Of a stretch of DNA of 64,000 nucleotides, positions 9,426 through 64,000 are shown in pieces; the first letter of the stretch is position 1, and each line of letters starts with the position of its first letter. The position numbers and the translations under genes are program-made. The notes under the pieces were generated by a model. It had not been told where the DNA came from, did not search any database, and saw only the letters and a list, made by a program, of their open reading frames with translations. This stretch comes from Hyphomicrobiales bacterium (lineage in GTDB: Bacteria; Pseudomonadota; Alphaproteobacteria; Rhizobiales; Beijerinckiaceae): positions 1-64,000 of the forward strand of contig JAGXAM010000003.1 of the NCBI GenBank assembly GCA_019075905.1, read 5' to 3'.

Positions 9426-11212
9426 TCGACCATGCCTCCGCCATTGGGTTGATTGACATAGGTATAACCCTGCGCGGCCAGCAGCGGAAACGGCGCCTTG
9501 GGCAACACGTCCTCGGGCGCCAGGCCCAGCATCGGCGCCGCGCGGGTAATGACCTTGCCGGTGATTTCGCCGGAATTCCAGGCGGCCGTATGAAAGCCGA
9601 AGGTGGATTTGAGGCCCTGCGGCTCGTTCATGATGACCATGAACAGATATTTGGGCTTGTTGGCCGGCACCAGCGCCATGAAAGTCGTGAAGACCTTGTT
9701 GTTGGCATAGCGGCCATGAATGATCTTGTCGGCCGTTCCGGTTTTGCCACCGACGAAATAGCCGGGAATATTGGCCTTTTTGGCCGAACCGATCTCGGCA
9801 TTGATGCGCATGAGATAGCGGATCGCCTCCGACACATCCGGCCGCACGACATTTTTGGAGACCTTCAGCGCCTGCGCCTGGTCACGCTTGAGGAAGGTCG
9901 GCACCATCAGGTTGCCACCATTGACGAGGCCCGCCACCGCCGCCATGGCCTGCAGGGGCGCGACATTGATGCCCTGGCCAAATGCAATCGTGATCGAATT
10001 CAGCGTTGACCATGGATGCGGGATGATCGGCGCCGCGCTTTCCGGCAATTCTGTCTTCATCCGCGTCAGCATGCCCATCTTGCGCAGGAAGGCCTTGTGG
10101 CCGGGCACCCCGACCCTGAGCACCATGCGCGCGGTGCCGATATTCGAGGAATGCACAAACACTTCCGGAACCGTCAGCATGCGGTGCGTTGCATCATAAT
10201 CATGGATGGTGAAGCGGCCGTAATGCAGATTGTGGGTGGCATCGAGGCGCGAGCCGAGCTTCACCTTGTCGTCCTGCAGCGCCATGGCAATCGAGATCGA
10301 CTTGAAGGTCGATCCCATTTCATAAACACCAGCAGTCATGCGGTTCTTGTTGACAGCGGTCACGCCCTTGCCAGGGTCGTTGGGATCAAAATCCGGCAGC
10401 GATTCCAGCGCAATGACTTCACCGGTGCGCACATCGAGAATGGCACCGGCATCGGACTTGGCCTTGAATTTGACGAGGCCCTTTTCGAGTTCGTCGCGCA
10501 GAACCTGGGTCACGTCGAGATCGATCGACAGCTTCACCGGTTTCAGGTCTTCATGTTTCACTTCAAAGCCGGCGCCATGCAGCGACATCAAGCCCTGCTC
10601 ATCGATATATTTCTCGATGCCGGCAATGCCGCGATTATCCTCGTTGGTAAAGCCGAGCACATGCGCCGCCAGCGGGCCGTTCGGGTAAAAGCGCTTCAGA
10701 TCCGGGAGAAAGCCGATGCCGGGCTCGCCCAGCTGGAAAATTTCCTCGCGCTGGCGCGGCGTGATGGTGCGCTTCACCCACACAAAACCCTTGCGCATGC
10801 CGAGGCGGTGGCGCAGCGCTTCGGGATGTTTCAGGCTGAGGATGCGCGTCAGCTCGTCCGTCACCTTGTTCTTGTCGATGATCTTGCCGGGCTCGGCAAA
10901 GACCGACACGGTACGCACATCGGTGGCCAGCAGGCGTCCATGCCGGTCGACAATATCGGGCCGCGCCGCCGAGAGTTCCTGATCGGCTGCGCCCTTGACT
11001 CCGCCCGGCAGGCCGCCCTTGAAGCCAAGCTGCACCAGGCGGCCAGCCATAATGGCAAATACGCCGAGAAAGCACACGGCAACGAAATTGATGCGCTTGT
11101 CGCTGTTGTGCAAATGCGTCGAGAGCATCCGCGCCTTGAGCGCACTCAGCTTCGGCGGCAAAACTGCCGACCGGGCTTTTTGGGGCTGGTCATCTTGAGG
11201 CAACATCGGCAT
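9422..11212 (-). CDS. ftsI: Division-specific class B penicillin-binding protein (transpeptidase)
   Basis: FtsI (PBP3) cross-links septal peptidoglycan in the periplasm, working with FtsW. The 596-residue protein has a cytoplasmic N-terminal tail, one membrane anchor (about 42-62), the PBP dimerisation domain, and a transpeptidase domain with S301-T-F-K304 (acylated serine), S355-S-N357 and K490-T-G. The C terminus lacks added domains. It starts 3 bp after ftsL stops and overlaps murE by 4 bases. Confidence 0.96.
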   Translation of the reverse strand: MPMLPQDDQPQKARSAVLPPKLSALKARMLSTHLHNSDKRINFVAVCFLGVFAIMAGRLVQLGFKGGLPGGVKGAADQELSAARPDIVDRHGRLLATDVRTVSVFAEPGKIIDKNKVTDELTRILSLKHPEALRHRLGMRKGFVWVKRTITPRQREEIFQLGEPGIGFLPDLKRFYPNGPLAAHVLGFTNEDNRGIAGIEKYIDEQGLMSLHGAGFEVKHEDLKPVKLSIDLDVTQVLRDELEKGLVKFKAKSDAGAILDVRTGEVIALESLPDFDPNDPGKGVTAVNKNRMTAGVYEMGSTFKSISIAMALQDDKVKLGSRLDATHNLHYGRFTIHDYDATHRMLTVPEVFVHSSNIGTARMVLRVGVPGHKAFLRKMGMLTRMKTELPESAAPIIPHPWSTLNSITIAFGQGINVAPLQAMAAVAGLVNGGNLMVPTFLKRDQAQALKVSKNVVRPDVSEAIRYLMRINAEIGSAKKANIPGYFVGGKTGTADKIIHGRYANNKVFTTFMALVPANKPKYLFMVIMNEPQGLKSTFGFHTAAWNSGEITGKVITRAAPMLGLAPEDVLPKAPFPLLAAQGYTYVNQPNGGGMVD

Positions 11213-46143: not shown

Positions 46144-47883
46144 ATGACTTCGATTTCCACGATGCCGGGGGCCGAGCGCGCGAGCGCGATTGTCGCCGCC
46201 CTCAACGGGCGCTGCCTTGTCATGATCGGCATGATGGGCTCCGGCAAGACCTCGGTCGGCCGCCGCCTTGCCGCACGCCTCGGCCTGCCCTTTGCCGATG
46301 CCGACAACGAGATCGAAATTGCTTCGGGCATGACCGTGCCGGAAATTTTCGTGCGCCGCGGCGAGCAGGAATTTCGCGAGGGCGAGCGCCGCGTGGTGGC
46401 GAGGCTGCTGCGTGATGGCCAGAAGGTGCTCTCCACCGGCGGCGGCGCCTTCAATGATCCACGCACGCGTGAGGCCATTGCCCGGCAAGGCATTTCCATC
46501 TGGCTCAAGGCGGATTTCGATGTGCTGATGCGCCGCGTGCGCAAGCGTAGCAACCGGCCGCTGCTGCAAACCGCCGATCCTGAAGCCACCCTGCGCCGCC
46601 TGATCGAGGAGCGCTACCCGATTTATGCCGAGGCCACCCTGACGGTTCTCTCGCAGGATGGCCCGCATGAGGCGGTGATCGAGGCCGTCCTGCGCGCCCT
46701 TGAGCTTCACCTTGGCCTCGAGACCGGCCATGCCCCCGGCCCTGCCGTGCATGAGGCGCCGGTCAGCGTGCATGTCGGCCTGCCCGGCCATGCCTATGAC
46801 ATTCTCATCGGCCCGGATCTCATCGCCGATGCCGGCAACCAGATCGCCCGGCTCGCCCCCGGCGCCGCCTGCGCCATCATCACCGACGAGCATGTCGCCA
46901 AGGCCCATGGTGCCGACTTGCAAGGCGCCCTGACCGCGCAGGGCATCCGCCATGCCATGCTGGTGCTGCCGCCAGGCGAGGCCACAAAATCCTACGGCTA
47001 TTTTCAGCAGGCCTGTGATTTTGTCATCGCCAACCGCATGGAACGCGGCGATCTCGTCATTGCCATGGGCGGCGGCGTCATTGGTGATCTCGCCGGCTAT
47101 GTCGCCGCCAGCGTCCGGCGCGGCATGCGCTTCGTGCAAATCCCCACCAGCCTGCTGGCACAGGTCGATTCCTCGGTGGGCGGCAAGACCGGCATCAACT
47201 CGCCGCATGGCAAGAATCTCGTCGGCGCCTTTCATCAGCCCAGCCTCGTGCTCGCCGACAGCCAGGCGCTCGAAACCCTGCCCGAGCGCGAGTTTCGTGC
47301 CGGCTATGCCGAAGTCGTCAAATACGGCCTGATCGACAAGCCGGATTTCTTCTTTTGGCTCGAAGCCCACAGCGCCGAGGTCTTTGCCGGCGGCCCGGCC
47401 CGCCAGCACGCCATTGCGACCGCCTGCCGCGCCAAGGCCGAGGTGGTGCTGCGCGATGAATTCGAGCAGGGGGACCGGGCGCTGCTCAATCTCGGCCACA
47501 CTTTTGGCCATGCCTTCGAGCGCCTGACCCATTATGACGGCGGCAAGCTGGTGCATGGCGAGGCCGTGGCCGTCGGCCTGTGCTGCGCCTTCCGCTTTTC
47601 CGTGCGCCTCGGCCTGTGCCAGGGTCAGGATGCCGGCCGTATCGAAGCGCATTTGCGCCGGGTCGGGCTGCCGACCCGCATCGGCGATATCAAGGGCCTT
47701 GAGGGCGACACCGATGCGCTGATCGCCGCCATGTATCAGGACAAGAAGGTCGTGCGCGGCCATCTGACCTTCATTCTCGCCCATGGCATCGGCAAAAGCT
47801 TTATTGCCCGCGATGTCGCCGAGGCAGATGTTCGCGCCTTCCTCGATGAGGAACGCGGGCTGGAGGTCACCCGCCTTGCCTGA
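46144..47883 (+). CDS. aroKB: Fused shikimate kinase / 3-dehydroquinate synthase
   Basis: This is a 579-residue protein with two complete enzymes of the chorismate pathway. Residues 20-195 are shikimate kinase: Walker A GMMGSGKTS (29-37), DADNEIE, STGGGAF (97-103) and RNRPLL-like RSNRPLL. Residues 205-575 are 3-dehydroquinate synthase: MGGGVIGDLAGYVA (308-321), QVDSSVGGKTGIN (340-352), GYAEVVKYGLI and LLNLGHTFGHAFE. A linker rich in Pro and His (about 192-207) joins them. In most proteobacteria aroK and aroB are separate adjacent genes. No frameshift or stop lies between the domains. It is divergent from the xerD unit. Confidence 0.95.
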   Translation: MTSISTMPGAERASAIVAALNGRCLVMIGMMGSGKTSVGRRLAARLGLPFADADNEIEIASGMTVPEIFVRRGEQEFREGERRVVARLLRDGQKVLSTGGGAFNDPRTREAIARQGISIWLKADFDVLMRRVRKRSNRPLLQTADPEATLRRLIEERYPIYAEATLTVLSQDGPHEAVIEAVLRALELHLGLETGHAPGPAVHEAPVSVHVGLPGHAYDILIGPDLIADAGNQIARLAPGAACAIITDEHVAKAHGADLQGALTAQGIRHAMLVLPPGEATKSYGYFQQACDFVIANRMERGDLVIAMGGGVIGDLAGYVAASVRRGMRFVQIPTSLLAQVDSSVGGKTGINSPHGKNLVGAFHQPSLVLADSQALETLPEREFRAGYAEVVKYGLIDKPDFFFWLEAHSAEVFAGGPARQHAIATACRAKAEVVLRDEFEQGDRALLNLGHTFGHAFERLTHYDGGKLVHGEAVAVGLCCAFRFSVRLGLCQGQDAGRIEAHLRRVGLPTRIGDIKGLEGDTDALIAAMYQDKKVVRGHLTFILAHGIGKSFIARDVAEADVRAFLDEERGLEVTRLA

Positions 47884-50923: not shown

Positions 50924-56061
<5,138 letters not shown>

Positions 56062-56062
<1 letters not shown>

Positions 56063-57372
56063 CAGCCGAGCCTGTCGATCATCGGTTGCGTGATCAGGCA
56101 TATGCCATTTTCCGAGCGGCGGAACCGGCGTTCGTCCTCGACGGCATCCTCGCCGACAATCAGGCCCTCAGGGATGGTGACGCCGCGATCGATGACACAA
56201 TTCTTCAGCCTCGAACCGCGGTTGACCGTGACATAGGGCAGAATGACGGCATGATCGACGTTCGAATAGGAATGCACATGCACGCCAGTAAATAGCAGCG
56301 AGCGGTGCACATGCGAGCCCGAGACAATGCAGCCGCCCGAGACCAGCGAGGCGGTGGCAAGCCCGCGCCGCTCGATGGAATCATGCACGAATTTGGCCGG
56401 CGGGGTGATTTCGCCAAAGGTCCAGATCGGCCAGTTGCGATCATAAAGATCGAGTTCCGGCACCACATCGGTCAGATCGATATTGGCCGCCCAATAGGCA
56501 TCGACTGTGCCGACATCGCGCCAATAGGCGCCATTTTCTTTCTGCGAGCGCACGCAACTCTGTGAAAAATGATGCGCCACCGCTTTGCCGTTCTTGACGA
56601 TAAAGGGAATGATATCCTTGCCAAAATCGCGGCTGGAATGAGGATCGGCAAAATCGCGCCGCAATTGGTCGATCAGGAATTTGGTCTCGAACACATAGAT
56701 ACCCATGCTGGCGAGCGCGCTTTCCGGCTTGCCGGGCATGGCCGGCGGGTCCTTCGGCTTTTCCATAAACGACAGGATGTTGTTGGCTTCATCAATATGC
56801 ATCACGCCAAAGCCGGTGGCTTCCATGCGTGGCACTTCGAGGCAGCCGATGGTGACATCCGCCCCCGAGGCGACATGCTGTTGCAGCATCACCTCGTAAT
56901 CCATCTTGTAAATATGGTCGCCGGCAAGGATAATCATATATTTCGGATCATAATCTTCAATAATATCAATGTTTTGATAGACCGCATCGGCCGTGCCGAG
57001 ATACCACGCGGTCTCGGAAATGCGTTGGCTGGCGGGCAGGATATCGAAGGTTTCATTGCGCTCGGGCCGGAAGAAGTTCCAGCCGCGCTGCAAATGCCGG
57101 ATCAGACTGTGGGCTTTGTACTGGGTGGCGACCGAAATGCGGCGCACGCCGGAATTGAGCGCATTGGACAGGGCAAAATCAATGATCCGCGACTTGCCGC
57201 CGAAATAGACCGCCGGCTTGGCCCGCCGGTCGGTGAGTTCCAGCAACCTTGAGCCGCGCCCGCCGGCCAGTACATAGGCCATGGCATGGCGGGCCAGCGG
57301 ACCACCGCCGATAAATTCGCTGCGCTGCGGCGGATTGAGCGTCGGGTCTGGACGGCGCGTGGTCTTGGTCAT
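56062..57372 (-). CDS. glgC: Glucose-1-phosphate adenylyltransferase
   Basis: GlgC makes ADP-glucose from glucose 1-phosphate and ATP, the committed and usually allosterically regulated step. The 436-residue protein has [75 protein letters not shown] and a left-handed beta-helix C terminus ending with acylyl-repeat like hexads. It starts 84 bp after glgB stops, the largest gap within the cluster, where a second promoter could lie. Confidence 0.96.
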
Positions 57373-57456
57373 GGTCGTGGTCTCCCTGTATGATCTCGTT
57401 GCACGCCCGGCTCTGATGGCCAGATTAGCTGCGTTTCAGGACAGTTGTGTTGCGCT

Positions 57457-59658
57457 TCATGCGGTGTCCAAGGCAAAATAGATGGTTGCGAGCGGTGGCA
57501 GCATGAATTCCGCACTGGCGACCTGCCCGTGGCTCGGGTTTGCCGCGGCGACGACAGCGCCAAGGTTGCCCTGCCCGGAGCCGCCATAAATCTGTGCATC
57601 GGTGTTGAGGATTTCGCGCCACAGCCCGGCCTGCGGCAGGCCGATGCGGTAGGAGGCGCGCGGCACCGGCGTGAAATTGCTCACCACCAGGATCGGCGCT
57701 GCGCCATCAAAGCCAAAGCGCAGCCAGGCGAACACCGATTGCGCGGCATCATCGGCCACCACCCACGAAAACCCCTCGCTCTCGCAATCGCGCTGGTGCA
57801 GCGCCGGCCAGGTGCGGTGCAGATGGTTGAGATCGCGCACCAGCAATTGCAGGCCGCGATGCAGCGGATGATCGGTGAGGTGCCAGTCGAGCCCTTCGCG
57901 GAAATTCCATTCGCGCCATTGCCCGAATTCCTGGCCCATGAACAGCAGCTTCTTGCCGGGATGGCCCCACATGAAACCGTAATAGCCGCGCAGATTGGCG
58001 AATTTCTGCCAATTATCGCCCGGCATCCGCGTGATCAGCGAACCTTTGCCATGCACCACCTCGTCATGCGACAGCGGCAGCACGAAATTCTCGGCAAAGG
58101 CGTAAAGCAGCCCGAAGGTCATGTCATGATGATGATGCGAGCGGTGCACCGGCTCTTTCATCATGTAATTCAAGGTGTCGTGCATCCAGCCCATATTCCA
58201 CTTGAAACCGAAGCCAAGGCCGCCGTGTTCAAGGGGTTGCGAGACGCCGGGCCATGAGGTCGATTCCTCGGCAATGGTCATGGCATAGGGGTGCAGGCCA
58301 TAGACCAGCTTGTTGACCTTGCGCAAAAATGCAATCGCCTCGAGATTCTGGTTCGATCCGTGGATATTGGCCGACCACTCGCCCGCCTTGCGGGAATAAT
58401 CGAGGTATAGCATCGAGGCGACGGCATCTACCCTCAGGCCATCGATGTGGAAGTGCTTGATCCAGTAGAGCGCATTGGCGGCCAGCATATTGGCGACCTC
58501 GGCGCGGCCGAAATCAAAAATCGCCGTGTTCCAGTCGGGATGGAACCCGCGCTTGGGATCAGGATCCTCATAGAGCGTATGGCCGTCAAACCAGGCAAGA
58601 CCGTGCGGATCGGTCGGAAAATGCGCCGGCACCCAATCGAGGATCACCCCGAGACCGGCGCGATGGGCGCGATCGACAAAGCGGGCGAAGCCGGCCGGAT
58701 CACCGAACCGCCGCGTTGGCGCAAACAGCCCGACCGGCTGGTAGCCCCAGGAATCATCCAGCGGATGCTCGGAAATCGGCATCAGCTCGATATGGGTGAA
58801 GCCCATATAGGCGACATAGGGCACCAGCTGGTCGGCGAGTTCGTCATAGGACAAAAACCGGCCGTAATCGCCGCGTCGCCAGGAGCCCAGATGCACCTCA
58901 TAGATCGACATGGCCTCGGCGCGCGAATTGCGCCGCGCCAGATGCGCCATATGCGCCTCGTCCTTCCACACGAAGGGCGCAGGATCGGTCACCAGCGATG
59001 CCGTATCGGGGCGCAGCTGCGCCGAAAAGCCGAAAGGATCGGCCTTGAGCGGCTGGCGTGCGCCGCTGGCGGCGATCACCTCATATTTGTAAATGGCATT
59101 GACCCCGACCAGCGGCGCAAAAATCTCCCAGACACCGCTGTCCAGCCTTTTGCGCATCTGGTGGCGGCGGCCATCCCAGTCGTTGAAATCGCCCACCACC
59201 GAGACGCGGGCGGCATGGGGCGCCCATACCGCAAAATGCACACCCTCGACCCCCTCATGGGTGATGCGATGCGCGCCAAGCTTGTCATAAAGCGCCTGAT
59301 GGCTGCCCTCGACCAGCAGATAATCATCGACCGAACCCAGCAGCGGCCCGAAACTGTATGTGTCATAAAGCTGCCAGCTGGCGCGCGGATTGGCCGCCCG
59401 CAACTGGTAGCGCGGCACTTTTTGCTTGCCCGGCAGGAAGGTCTCAAACAACCCGCTGGGGTGGGTTTTCTCGAAGGAAGCCAGCCGCCCCCCCTTGGCA
59501 TCGATCATTTCGAGGGTTTCGGCATCGGGCAGCAACACCCGCACCGCCAGACCTCCCGCCACCAGATGCGGCCCCAGCACCGCGAAGGGATCATGGTGGC
59601 GCGCGCTCACCAGCTGTTCGACTTCATCGCGATGCAGGGCTGCAGCTTGTTGCGTCAT
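57457..59658 (-). CDS. glgB: 1,4-alpha-glucan branching enzyme
   Basis: This is a 733-residue GH13 enzyme that creates alpha-1,6 branches. It has two N-terminal carbohydrate-binding domains (the first about 10-105, then CBM48 with [23 protein letters not shown]), a TIM-barrel with [19 protein letters not shown] (nucleophile Asp), [10 protein letters not shown] (acid Glu) and [12 protein letters not shown], and a C-terminal beta domain. Length equals the E. coli type. The start overlaps the glgP stop by 4 bases. Confidence 0.96.
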
Positions 59659-62156
59659 GCGGGCACCTTGGTCGCGATCGGCACGTTCCAGATGTCACGC
59701 GCATATTCGCCAATCGTGCGATCCGATGAGAACCAGCCCATGCCGGCAATGTTGCGGGCGCTCTTTTCCAGCCAGTCCCGTGGCTGCTGGAAATGATCCG
59801 CGGCATGGCGCTGCATCTTGTAATAGGCGTCGAAATCGGCCGAAACCATGAAATAATCATGGTGGGTGATGATGTCGCATAGGCCGCGATAGCGCCCCGG
59901 ATCATCGGGCGAGAACACCCCGCCAGCCAGGCTGTCGATCACCTCGCGCAGGATCGGCGAGGCGTTGATAATATCGACCGAAGATATGCCACGCGCCCGG
60001 CGCGCCGCCACTTCCTCGGTCGTCATGCCGAAAATGAAGATATTTTCCGCCCCGACATGTTCCATGATCTCGACATTGGCCCCATCGAGCGTGCCGATGG
60101 TCAAGGCACCGTTCAGCGCCAGCTTCATGTTGCCGGTGCCGGAGGCCTCCATGCCGGCCGTGGAAATCTGCTCGGAGAGATCAGCGGCGGGAATGATCAT
60201 TTCCGCCAGCGACACATTGTAATTGGGCAGGAACACCACCTTCAGCCGGTCTCGCAGCGTCGGATCGGCGTTGATCACCTTGGCGACATCATTGGCAAGG
60301 CGGATGATGAGCTTGGCAGTATCATAGCTGGCCGCAGCCTTGCCGGCAAAAATCTTCACCCGCGGCGTCCAGTTGCGCATCGGCTGCGCCCGCATCGCCT
60401 GATAGATCGCTATAGTCTCAAGGATATTCAGCAATTGCCGCTTGTATTCATGAATGCGCTTGATCTGCACATCAAACAGCGCGTGCGGATCGAGCACCAC
60501 CCCTACCCTCTCGCGCGCCAGTTTCGCCAGGGCCACCTTCGCCTGCATCTTGCAGCGCGCCAGATTGTCCTGAAATGCCGCATCCTGCGCGAAGGCCGAC
60601 AGGCGCGTCAATTGCCCGGCATCATCCAGCACCCGCTCGCCGAGGGTCTCGACCAGAAGCGCGGTGAGCGGCTGATTGCACTCGAAAAGCCAGCGGCGGA
60701 AGGTGATGCCGTTGGTCTTGTTGTTGATCCGCCCCGGATAGGCCCGGTCGAGATCGGCAAAAATCGTCTTTTCGAGCAGGTTGGTATGCAGCGCCGAAAC
60801 GCCATTGATCGAATGCGAGCCGATGAAGGCGAGATGGCCCATGCGCACACGCCGGCCATTATGCTCGTCGATCAGGGACACCGAGGAGAGCATCGCATCG
60901 CCGGGGTCCTGCGCATGGCGCAGGTCGTCGAGGTGCTTTTCGTTCAGGAGATAAATGATCTGCATGTGGCGCGGCAGCAACCGCTCCATCAGCGGCACCG
61001 GCCAGCTTTCCAGCGCCTCCGGCAACAAGGTGTGGTTGGTATAGCCGAACGTGCGCACCACCAGATCCCAGGCATGATCCCAGTCGAGGCCGTGGTTGTC
61101 GACCAGCAGCCGCATCATTTCGGCAATGCCGATCGAGGGATGGGTATCATTGAGCTGGATCGCCACCCGGTCCGGCAGACTGTCGAGGCTCTTTTCATTC
61201 TTGACATGGCGGCGCAGCAAATCCTGCAACGAGGCCGAGACAAAGAAAAACTCCTGCCGCAGCCGCAATTCCTGGCCTTCAGGCGTGGATTCGCTGGGAT
61301 AGAGCACCTTGGAAATCGCCTCGGCCTGGGCCTGGGCATTTTGCGCGCCGACATAATCGCCGCTGTTGAAGCGGTCGAGCCGCAGCGGATCGAGTGCCCG
61401 TGCCGACCAGAGCCGCAGGGTATTGACCTGCGCCCCGCGCCATCCGGCCACCGGCGTGTCAAAGGCCACCGCCTGCACCGCCTCGGCCGGCTGCCACATA
61501 TAGCGCGGCTTGGCTTCGTCCTCGGTGATCATCACGACGGAACCGCCAAAGCCGATGGTATAACTCACCTCGTGGCGCTCGAACTCCCATGGATTGCGCC
61601 AGTCGAGCCAGTTTTCTGGATATTCGAGCTGCCGCCCATCCTTGATGCGCTGGCGAAACAGGCCATGGTCATAGCGGATGCCATAGCCATACATCGGCAC
61701 CATTAGCGAAGCCGCGCTCTCCATGAAGCAGGCGGCCAGACGCCCGAGGCCGCCATTGCCCAGCGCCGGATCGGGCTCGACCTCAAGCAGCGCATCGAGG
61801 CTGACATTGAGCTCGGCCAGCGCCCCGCGCACCGCCGCGGTCAGGCCGAAATTGTTCATGCTGTCGAACAGCAGCCGCCCGATCAGGAATTCCAGCGACA
61901 GATAATAGACCCGCTTGCGCTTGGCCTCGTAAACATCATGGATCGACGAAATCCAGCGGCGGGTCATCACATCGCGGACGGCCAGCGCCGTCGCCTCAAA
62001 CCAGTCGCGCTCGGTGGCCGCAATCGGATTCTTGCCGACCGCATAAGTCATCTTCGCCAGAATCGCCTCGCGCATCGCCACTTTGTCCGGCAGCGTTTCC
62101 GCCTGCGCGGAGGCCGCGAGCGGATCGGCAGGGAGGGTCGTGACTGACGCATTCAT
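59655..62156 (-). CDS. glgP: Glycogen/maltodextrin phosphorylase
   Basis: This is an 833-residue PLP enzyme that releases glucose 1-phosphate from glucan ends. It shows [42 protein letters not shown], the NGITFRRWL region and the cofactor-lysine segment [20 protein letters not shown]. It is the first gene of the six-gene glycogen cluster. The ATG at 62156 ([12 protein letters not shown]) is chosen; another at 62219 adds 21 unconserved residues, and neither has a strong ribosome site. Confidence 0.95.
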
Positions 62157-62547
62157 CGCATGAACATCCGGCTTGATCTCGTTGCGAACAATGTGACGGT
62201 GCCAAGGGGACAAAGTCAATCAGGACGCAGCAAATTTGGTCGCAATCCCGCCATAATGTCACGGTGCCGAACCGGGACCGGCCGCCCCCTGGGGAGAAGG
62301 CCTCATCCACCATATTGTCATACTTATTCCGCAAAATTGCGCATAATGAATTGAATGCTCAACTGTTTTGACATAAACTGCAAAGCGATGCCCGAATTTG
62401 CCGGGAATTGTGGAAATATAAAGCTACGATAGTTTAGATGTAAACCGATGCCGCATAATTCACGCAATCCGGGCCGATAAGTGCGGCCATGAATCTGTGC
62501 CGACCAGAGACCTGGAGCACAAGCAAATCACCTTGGAAGTATCTCGA
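62157..62547. other. 391-bp divergent intergenic region between glgP and the BoxR-like gene
   Basis: This is the longest gene-free stretch in the window and is more AT-rich than its flanks, especially at 62320-62460. It should hold the promoters for the glycogen cluster (minus) and the regulator (plus). It contains a 14-bp near-perfect direct repeat, a short palindrome CGCAA-AA-TTGCG near 62325-62345, and a TTGACA at 62368-62373 without a good -10 partner at normal spacing. Only one TGCA, the core of known BzdR/BoxR operators, is present (62379-62382). No coding frame is convincing. Confidence 0.6.
62190..62268. repeat. 14-bp direct repeat upstream of glgP
   Basis: AATGTGACGGTGCC (62190-62203) recurs as AATGTCACGGTGCC (62255-62268), differing at one base and offset by 65 bp. 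Both lie within about 115 bp of the glgP start codon, where transcription factor sites for the glycogen operon would be expected. Confidence 0.5.
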
Positions 62548-63486
62548 ATGAAGACGTCATTTCATGAAATTGCCAGCTCGGCGGCCCGTGTGGGCGAGTC
62601 GGAGTTCCTTGCCGAACTCGGCCGGCGCGCCCGCGCCCTGCGCACGCAATCGGGGCTCTCGCGCAAGCTGCTGGCGGAAAAGTCCGGCCTGTCAGAGCGC
62701 TATATCGCCCAGCTGGAAGCCGGCAAGGGCAATGTCTCGGTGCTGCTGTTGCGGCGCATTTGCCATGGCATCAACGTGCCGATTGCGGCGCTGCTGCATC
62801 CCCAGAGCGCCAATGCCACGCTTTTCGAGGAATTCCAGTCGCTGCTGACCGAAGCTGATCCCAAGCGCATCGAAGCCGCCCGCCGCGCCCTTCGCGAACC
62901 GGCGCGCCAGCCCTCCGGCCCGGTGCGTCGGCTCGATCGCGTCGCCCTGATCGGCCTGCGCGGTGCCGGGAAATCAACCCTCGCCCGGCTCGCTGCCGAT
63001 GAGCTGAAATGGCCGTTTTTCGAGCTCAACCGCGAGATCGAGCGCGATCACGGCCTGCAAGTGCACGAAATCTTCCCGCTCTACGGCCAGAACGGTTACC
63101 GCCGCCTGGAGCAGGCCTCCCTGCGCGGCCTCACCACCCGGGCCGGTGCCATGCTGCTCGCCACCAATGGCGGCCTGGTATCCGACGCCCTGTCGATGGA
63201 AATCCTGCTGGAAAATTTCTACACGATCTGGATCAAGGCCTCGCCCGACGAGCATCTTGAGCGGGTGCGCGCCCAGGGCAAGACAAGGATCGTCGCCGAT
63301 GATGACATTGCCTTGGAGGAACTTCGTGCAATTCTCGGCGAGCGCGAGCTGCAATATGCTCGTGCCCATGCGACCATCGACACCACCGGCAAGAGCGTTG
63401 CCCATTCTCTGCATGATCTTCTTGCGGTCATTGCCGCCCATAGCGGTGTTGAAGTGCGCGCCAGTCAGGCCTTCGCCGCCGGCTGA
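62548..63486 (+). CDS. BoxR/BzdR-type regulator: HTH plus shikimate kinase-like domain
   Basis: This is a 312-residue protein with an XRE helix-turn-helix (about 22-85, including [20 protein letters not shown]) and a shikimate kinase-like P-loop domain (about 130-300) with Walker [10 protein letters not shown] (136-144). This architecture is that of BzdR and BoxR, repressors of benzoate catabolism that sense benzoyl-CoA through the kinase-like domain. The start [10 protein letters not shown] has GGAAG at 8 bases. No box, bzd or other aromatic gene is adjacent; neighbours are glgP (divergent) and an RND pump (convergent, overlapping by 22 bases). The ligand is therefore an inference from the family. 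Confidence 0.85.
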
Positions 63487-64000
63487 GCTGGCGCCCGCAA
63501 CCAGCGGCGCGGCGACAAATGCCCGAGCCGGTCGAGCAGCATATAGGTTACCGGCGTCGTGAACAGCGTCAGCACCTGCGACACCATCAGGCCGCCGGCA
63601 ATGGTGATGCCGAGCGGCTGGCGCAATTCAAAGCCCGGCCCGGTCGCAAAAATCAGCGGCAGCGCCCCGAGCAGCGAGGCCATGGTCGTCATCAGGATCG
63701 GGCGGAAGCGGGCAATGCACGCCTGGTAAATCGCTTCCGCCGCATCGAGGTTTTCGGCCCGCTGCGCATGGATGGCGAAATCCACCAGCATGATCCCGTT
63801 CTTTTTGACAATGCCGATCAGCAGGATGATACCGATCAGCGCGATCAGCGACAAGGGCGTATGCGTCACCTCGAGCGCCAGCAGCGCCCCGAGCCCGGCT
63901 GATGGCAGGGTCGATAAAATGGTGATGGGGTGGATCAGGCTCTCGTAGAGAATGCCGAGCACCATATAAACCGCAATCAGCGCCGCGATGATCAGCAAGG
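63465..64000 (-). CDS. RND-family efflux permease, C-terminal part (runs off right edge)
   Basis: The last 177 residues of an AcrB/MdtB-like inner membrane transporter are visible: helices with [64 protein letters not shown] and [14 protein letters not shown]. These match the end of the HAE1 family and look closest to the MdtB/MdtC group. The 5' portion lies beyond 64000. Its stop is inside the end of the convergent BoxR-like gene. Any membrane fusion protein or outer-membrane partner is outside the window. Confidence 0.9.

Follow-up and report, generated by a model that had tools for sequence, protein, structure and literature searches.

A candidate orphan BoxR-family regulator with an altered lid motif between glgP and an RND pump operon in a Hyphomicrobiales bacterium

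The window, a stretch of 64,000 nucleotides from a Hyphomicrobiales bacterium (assembly GCA_019075905.1, contig JAGXAM010000003.1, positions 1 to 64,000), carries close to its end a gene for a regulator of the BoxR family (Table 1). The encoded protein scores 351.8 bits against the NCBIfam model NF006015 'anaerobic benzoate catabolism transcriptional regulator' (cut-off 204) and combines an N-terminal XRE-type helix-turn-helix (HTH) domain (Pfam HTH_3, 43.1 bits, cut-off 23) with a C-terminal shikimate-kinase-like domain (Pfam SKI, 103.9 bits, cut-off 22.1), which bears out the BoxR/BzdR subfamily architecture proposed in the original prediction. This architecture, the response to benzoyl-CoA and the TGCA operators are established for BzdR and BoxR (PMC3602430, PMC6449761, PMC4424350). 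Upstream, the regulator gene is divergent from glgP, and downstream it meets an RND operon on the opposite strand, so that both the family models and the order of the open reading frames (ORFs) agree with the flanks as first described. The RND operon encodes two permeases with MdtC and MdtB as their best models, an adaptor that exceeds the RND_mfp cut-off and has MdtA as its best model, and a NodT-type outer membrane factor, with the MdtA, MdtB and MdtC models all remaining below their own cut-offs. At its 3' end the regulator gene shares 22 bases with the last RND gene, and due to this tail-to-tail arrangement the regulator and the pump have no promoter in common. The gap towards glgP holds just one TGCA, as had been stated. 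The reported lack of aromatic genes beside the regulator likewise holds for the ORF lists, which run from position 54000 to some 16 kb beyond the regulator and in which none was seen by inspection, most of these ORFs being judged by eye rather than by a library scan. Further upstream in the window, glgP is part of a compact glycogen cluster together with glgB, glgC, glgA and a phosphoglucomutase-like gene, of which glgP was scanned and the others were named by inspection. The true shikimate kinase expected within the window is indeed present as an AroK-AroB fusion, for which the shikimate kinase and 3-dehydroquinate synthase models are both above cut-off.

Table 1. Features of the window around the BoxR-family regulator gene
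Feature	Position	Strand	Remarks
AroK-AroB fusion	46144-47883		579 aa
Glycogen cluster	52963-62159	-	
glgP, divergent neighbor	59655-62159	-	ATG at 62159; TIGR02093, 1097 bits
Gap between glgP and the regulator gene	62160-62547		388 bp; single TGCA at 62379
Weak promoter-like site towards glgP	62415-62444	-	TTTACA-N18-TATATT; overlaps the counterpart of the second operator
Counterpart of the second G001 operator, ACGCACTATGGTTCAT	62423-62437		Eroded, one base shorter
Degenerate candidate BoxR-type operator, ATGCCGCATAATTCAC	62448-62463		14 of 16 bases as in the strong G001 site; matrix score 5.2 against 18.6
Orphan BoxR-family regulator	62548-63486	+	312 aa; coding part 62548-63483; HTH at about residues 23-80, linker, shikimate-kinase-like domain at about 131-293
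Putative recognition-helix stretch, residues 46-58	62683-62721	+	Helix assigned from the HTH fold
Walker A / P-loop GLRGAGKST, residues 136-144	62953-62979	+	
Lid motif QGKTRIVAD, residues 243-251	63274-63300	+	Replaces family QGDxRPM
3' end of MdtC-like RND permease gene, tail to tail	63465-64000	-	Gene runs past the window end

The genome to which the window belongs (G000; 2.88 Mb in 33 contigs) also contains a box cluster on contig C28, where boxC, boxB, boxA, boxR and bclA follow one another on one strand, with boxR between boxA and bclA, and where BoxA, BoxB, BoxC and the benzoate-CoA ligase each exceed their own NCBIfam cut-off. The BoxR of this cluster (C28:34709-35650) is 43% identical to the window BoxR, and as the box cluster thus has a BoxR of its own, the window BoxR is an extra, orphan copy. 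The original prediction had named as evidence against itself a separate box cluster equipped with its own BoxR together with a failure of the protein to bind CoA esters, and of these the genome search for box genes found the former. The window BoxR is itself not encoded with box or bzd genes, as judged by inspection and, in its congeners, by tblastn. A benzoyl-CoA reductase pathway was considered as a distant target and rejected, since no PF06050 (benzoyl-CoA reductase family) member is found in the three genus genomes searched. In the congener G044, the box cluster lacks a BoxR on the 19.9-kb stretch read, which makes action in trans likely in the genus. This genome has a second BoxR, with an intact lid, between xylulokinase-like and galU-like genes (named by inspection).

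Among 149 genomes of the family, NF006015 is matched at E <= 1e-40 in 25 and boxB at E <= 1e-100 in 21, with 19 genomes on both lists, six with the regulator only and two with boxB only. The six regulator-only genomes all belong to genus g8, and their proteins group among those of Methylobacterium in the 57-row tree described below. The second match in G043 is a contig-edge fragment that was placed in no tree. Of four sampled members of the window's own genus, three have two BoxR-type genes and one, which is 73% complete, has none. The order of glgP, regulator and RND operon is common to all three genus members that have the window-type gene; the reading frame is intact in the three species, and the identity to the window BoxR in the same place is 89% for the sister gene and 55-58% in the second genus member. 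The regulator lies beside none of 27 other loci of the pump permease in the family, among the matches listed, a check that spanned at most about 1.5 kb per side and is too short to judge glgP, which it missed even in G044. A BoxR-type gene beside a related MdtABC-like RND operon is found near a contig end in a genome of another family (G354:C39, L191, about 460-1300), which is 88% complete and without a boxB match. Simple counting between the window genome and the congener G001 gives a dN/dS of 0.133 for the window BoxR (0.344 for the HTH part and 0.066 for the sensor domain), compared to 0.115 for boxR (0.07 for its sensor domain); for glgP and the RND permease the values are 0.047 and 0.057, respectively. 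These low values indicate that the window gene is constrained and not drifting.

In the 57-row tree, which was thinned by hand from 109 proteins, the window BoxR belongs to a clade of three rows from one genus (support 100/100) on a stem of 1.11. This clade is nested (97/88) in a 49-row alphaproteobacterial BoxR clade comprising 24 box-linked proteins, 13 orphans of the Methylobacterium group, the window clade and nine others without boxABC on their stretch. The C28-type BoxRs form a separate clade of six rows (100/98). Blanking the lid columns in a second tree, made by a quick method, leaves the placement unchanged (stem 1.02; 44 rows in the larger clade; SH-aLRT 99). This tree covers 83 of the 146 aligned rows, leaving out L035, a box-linked long branch, L203, a doubtful distant match, L080, L145, L179 and most Bradyrhizobium rows; L091 yielded no protein. 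The test of whether the window group and Methylobacterium form one clade speaks neither for nor against it (p 0.232). In this reading the window BoxR would derive from the main alphaproteobacterial BoxR clade, and the C28 copy falls in another.

Shikimate kinase closes its lid over ATP. For benzoyl-CoA, a resemblance of its two ends to ATP and shikimate has been proposed (PMC3602430), and the lid of BoxR may correspondingly touch the CoA part of its ligand. In the alignment of 146 rows, the lid residues D245, R247 and P248 are identical in all 105 box-linked rows (104 distinct sequences), while position 249 is Met in 102 of them and Ile in the other three. Rows were taken as linked when boxA, boxB or boxC was present on the stretch available, some stretches stopping at contig edges, and a recheck of every row with four added stretches returned the same 105. 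The family signature GDxRP[M/I], which was derived in this analysis and is not a published criterion, is replaced by GKxR[I/S] in the window clade. Here the lids read GKTRIV, GKTRII and GKMRSK, with Arg247 kept and the Asp, Pro and Met changed. Furthermore, of 80 near-invariant columns the three members of the window clade breach 10, 10 and 14, compared to a median of 0, a 95th percentile of 2.25 and a maximum of 12 in 76 box-linked rows, a set outside which most order-level rows fall. The changed lid suggests that the ligand of the window BoxR is not, or not mainly, benzoyl-CoA. The name 'benzoyl-CoA sensor' given to this copy in the original prediction is therefore unsupported, as the lid signature of all 105 box-linked rows is altered, and the suggestion made alongside it, that the protein may sense another ligand, is the one that agrees with the lid. 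This lid variant is not reported in the titles or abstracts of the literature surveyed, a survey with subscription journals largely outside its reach.

The Mg-binding Asp, which corresponds to Asp36 of E. coli shikimate kinase (PMC3602430), is missing from the window BoxR, where the stretch reads ELNREIE against DADNEIE in the AroK of the same genome. This stretch is replaced in the C28 BoxR too, and the P-loop is kept relative to the genome's own shikimate kinase. A predicted model of the window BoxR has a mean pLDDT of 77.8 and a pTM of 0.54, with only 58 for the block of residues 241-250 that includes the lid, and for this reason no claim on the pocket rests on the model. None of the 47 PDB sequence matches listed is a BoxR; they comprise shikimate kinases, HTH proteins and further P-loop proteins. 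Lid changes also occur in the Methylobacterium group, where the motif is altered in all 19 rows and the Arg is lost in 18. Of the 19 other rows without boxABC on their stretch, 16 have RPM, RPL and RPT occur once each, and a single distant row lacks the motif altogether. When orphan status is compared with lid change on the tree, two independent pairs speak for an association, none against and three are ties, which is not significant. With these pairs and with 16 of the 19 other rows keeping RPM, the association is suggestive only.

The recognition stretch of the window BoxR, SERYIAQLE, is found in 100 of the 146 aligned rows and differs from that of the C28 BoxR, SQRYLARLE. An operator matrix with the palindromic consensus ATGAATTATAATTCAT was built from 70 sites (21 distinct) in the upstream regions of 68 loci outside Methylobacterium/Methylorubrum. 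A site with at most two mismatches to the seed pattern, which was devised after viewing such upstream regions, is present in 66 of these 68 loci, and none of the 12 Methylobacterium/Methylorubrum loci has one even with up to three. These orphans (L064, L066, L067, L069, L070, L072-L074, L081, L084, L087 and L093) have no BoxR-type operator upstream.

The regulator promoter of G001 contains two tandem operator-like sites with scores of 18.6 and 13.8, 26 bp apart, and the better score is reached by none of 1000 dinucleotide shuffles. One of the two sites contains TATAAT and may therefore partly be a -10 box. The regulator promoter in the window is at chance, its best matrix score falling at a spot other than the degenerate operator of Table 1 and being reached by 208 of 1000 shuffles; in G044 no site is found by the matrix, with the best score reached by 897 of 1000. 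The promoter call towards glgP is near chance as well (one found against 0.5 expected), and none is called in G001. The boxC promoters of G000, G001 and G044 score 13.0, 12.1 and 15.1, with 30, 38 and 12 of 1000 shuffles, respectively, scoring at least as high. The three genomes were also scanned with a pattern that had been widened at two positions after the sites were known, so that its ranking is not independent; the shuffle test relied on the earlier matrix. When up to one mismatch is allowed, this pattern hits a single place in the window's genome, the boxC promoter, and two in G001, including the regulator promoter. Five matches to the widened pattern besides boxC were inspected with their neighbors and had no common theme by inspection. 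The published palindrome RTGCAYNNNNRTGCAY, with one mismatch, matches neither the regulator gap nor the boxC promoter. The published TGCA palindrome occurs with at most one mismatch at 50 sites per strand in the genome, against three for a control with ACGT in place of TGCA, which is hence a poor match, and a regulon defined by this palindrome was rejected, as none of the 50 sites is the regulator gap or the boxC promoter.

Phenylacetyl-CoA was also considered as a ligand, by way of a paa cluster without a regulator, and rejected because the paa clusters of G000 and G001 both hold a PaaX-like gene. The G000 copy scores 255.4 bits, below the cut-off of 264.55, and the G001 copy was named by inspection. 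These paaA/paaC clusters lie in L275 (G000:C24) and L276 (G001:C123), and in their vicinity a CoA-ligase-like and an enoyl-CoA-hydratase-like gene were noted in G001 and a thioesterase-like gene in both genomes, all by inspection, which makes other aryl-CoA pools likely. On the paa stretches, operator scores do not exceed 5.7 in G000 and 6.7 in G001. Scores of 16.4 and 14.4 occur on the stretch from G044, neither of which recurs on the stretches of the other two species; the former belongs to a BoxR-type palindrome at G044:C7 (L277) 10202-10217, just before a PaaK-like gene.

From these sequence comparisons we propose, with a probability of roughly 0.45, that the window BoxR is an autoregulated, orphan and neofunctionalized BoxR paralogue with a changed ligand preference. 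Before the three sampled species split, the gene would have moved into the space that separates glgP from the RND operon, and its product would have retained its P-loop and the DNA-reading helix common in the family. This protein would act as a presumably dimeric repressor on a ATGNAYTATARTNCAT-type palindrome in its own promoter, thereby controlling its own synthesis, and could be released from the DNA when a CoA ester or another nucleotide-bearing ligand closes the shikimate-kinase-like domain. The window BoxR probably still reads a BoxR-type palindrome and regulates itself. Its targets would thus perhaps be the regulator gene itself, with the glycogen operon or box in trans as further candidates and the RND pump as the least likely target compared to glgP and box.

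It is rather doubtful that the window BoxR is instead a redundant second benzoyl-CoA repressor that acts in trans on the box operon. Such a role would agree with the common family form of the recognition helix, with the BoxR-type palindromes in the boxC promoters of G000, G001 and G044, of which the first is the window genome's only match within one mismatch, and with the G044 box cluster, where the lack of a BoxR on 19.9 kb makes trans action likely; cross-regulation between BoxR and BzdR is described for Azoarcus sp. CIB (PMC6449761, PMC4424350). However, the window clade has a changed lid signature and a long stem, whereas RPM is retained by the second G044 copy and by the C28-type BoxRs of both G000 and G001, and the differing helix of the C28 BoxR, SQRYLARLE, may suit the box operator better.

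It is unlikely that the window BoxR acts locally on its divergent neighbor, the glycogen operon from glgP onward, and would link glycogen use to a CoA-ester signal. The sites concerned lie about 85-125 bp from the regulator start but about 264-304 bp from the glgP start; their window copies are degenerate and the matrix finds none in G044, and the promoter predicted towards glgP is close to chance level in the window and has no counterpart called in G001. These points weigh against the divergent pairing with glgP in all three genomes, the position of the G001 operators in the shared gap and the overlap of the weak window promoter towards glgP with the counterpart of the second operator. Slightly less likely still is the version in which the promoter region common to glgP and the regulator is controlled by a BoxR-type sensor domain re-tuned to another CoA ester or nucleotide, so that glycogen mobilization would answer an acyl-CoA signal. 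If this were true, altered-lid orphan BoxRs of this genus and of Methylobacterium would be unrecognized CoA-ester switches outside aromatic degradation.

Control of the adjoining MdtABC-like RND pump, one of the roles first suggested for the regulator, is very improbable and was rejected, since in none of the three species does the RND promoter, searched over about 200-320 bp upstream, hold an operator above shuffle level (977, 354 and 352 of 1000 shuffles). The adjacency is conserved in three genomes and the BoxR-type gene of G354 also stands beside a related pump, but the regulator and pump genes are tail to tail without a shared promoter, and the G354 gene follows its pump operon on the same strand, keeps RPM and falls elsewhere in the tree. 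The least probable of all, a non-functional remnant of a former box cluster as the orphan place, long stem and eroded operator might suggest, is opposed by the frame intact in three species and by dN/dS values, overall and for the sensor domain, that are close to those of boxR.

The closest known systems to this putative neofunctionalized paralogue are the BoxRs of box clusters, such as the C28 copy and those of Bradyrhizobium and Mycetohabitans, which have the same arrangement of HTH, linker and shikimate-kinase-like domain. The window and C28 BoxRs are alike in their P-loop, in lacking the kinase Asp pair and in exceeding the NF006015 cut-off, whereas the window BoxR stands apart in its missing box linkage, its GKxR[I/S] lid and its position with glgP and the RND operon as neighbors. 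The repressor BzdR, which governs anaerobic benzoate genes in Azoarcus sp. CIB and is released by benzoyl-CoA (PMC3602430), by its description shares the architecture and presumably the mode of action; a difference is that no PF06050 member was found in the three genus genomes. In Rhodopseudomonas palustris CGA009, a boxR is described without a box cluster, and the authors allow for additional functions (PMC10803450); compared by description, it resembles the window BoxR in having no adjoining box cluster. The Rhodopseudomonas rows L086 and L120, without boxABC on their stretch, have RPM or RPL and lie elsewhere in the tree. The Methylobacterium-type orphans (12 of 80 loci plus six genomes of the window's family, with at least one duplicate) likewise have no boxABC on their stretches and a changed lid, the six family genomes having no boxB match. 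They differ in that the lid Arg is lost in 18 of 19 and in that a cysE-like gene (by inspection) follows in 14 of 15 loci.

With BzdR and BoxR, the conversion of an enzyme, shikimate kinase, into a sensor has been studied. The orphan copies with altered lids, which occur either together with a box-linked BoxR in the same genome or without any boxB match, are natural variants for asking which residues set the choice of ligand. They also make the database name 'anaerobic benzoate catabolism transcriptional regulator' a caution, as this function is unproven for orphan copies with an altered lid.
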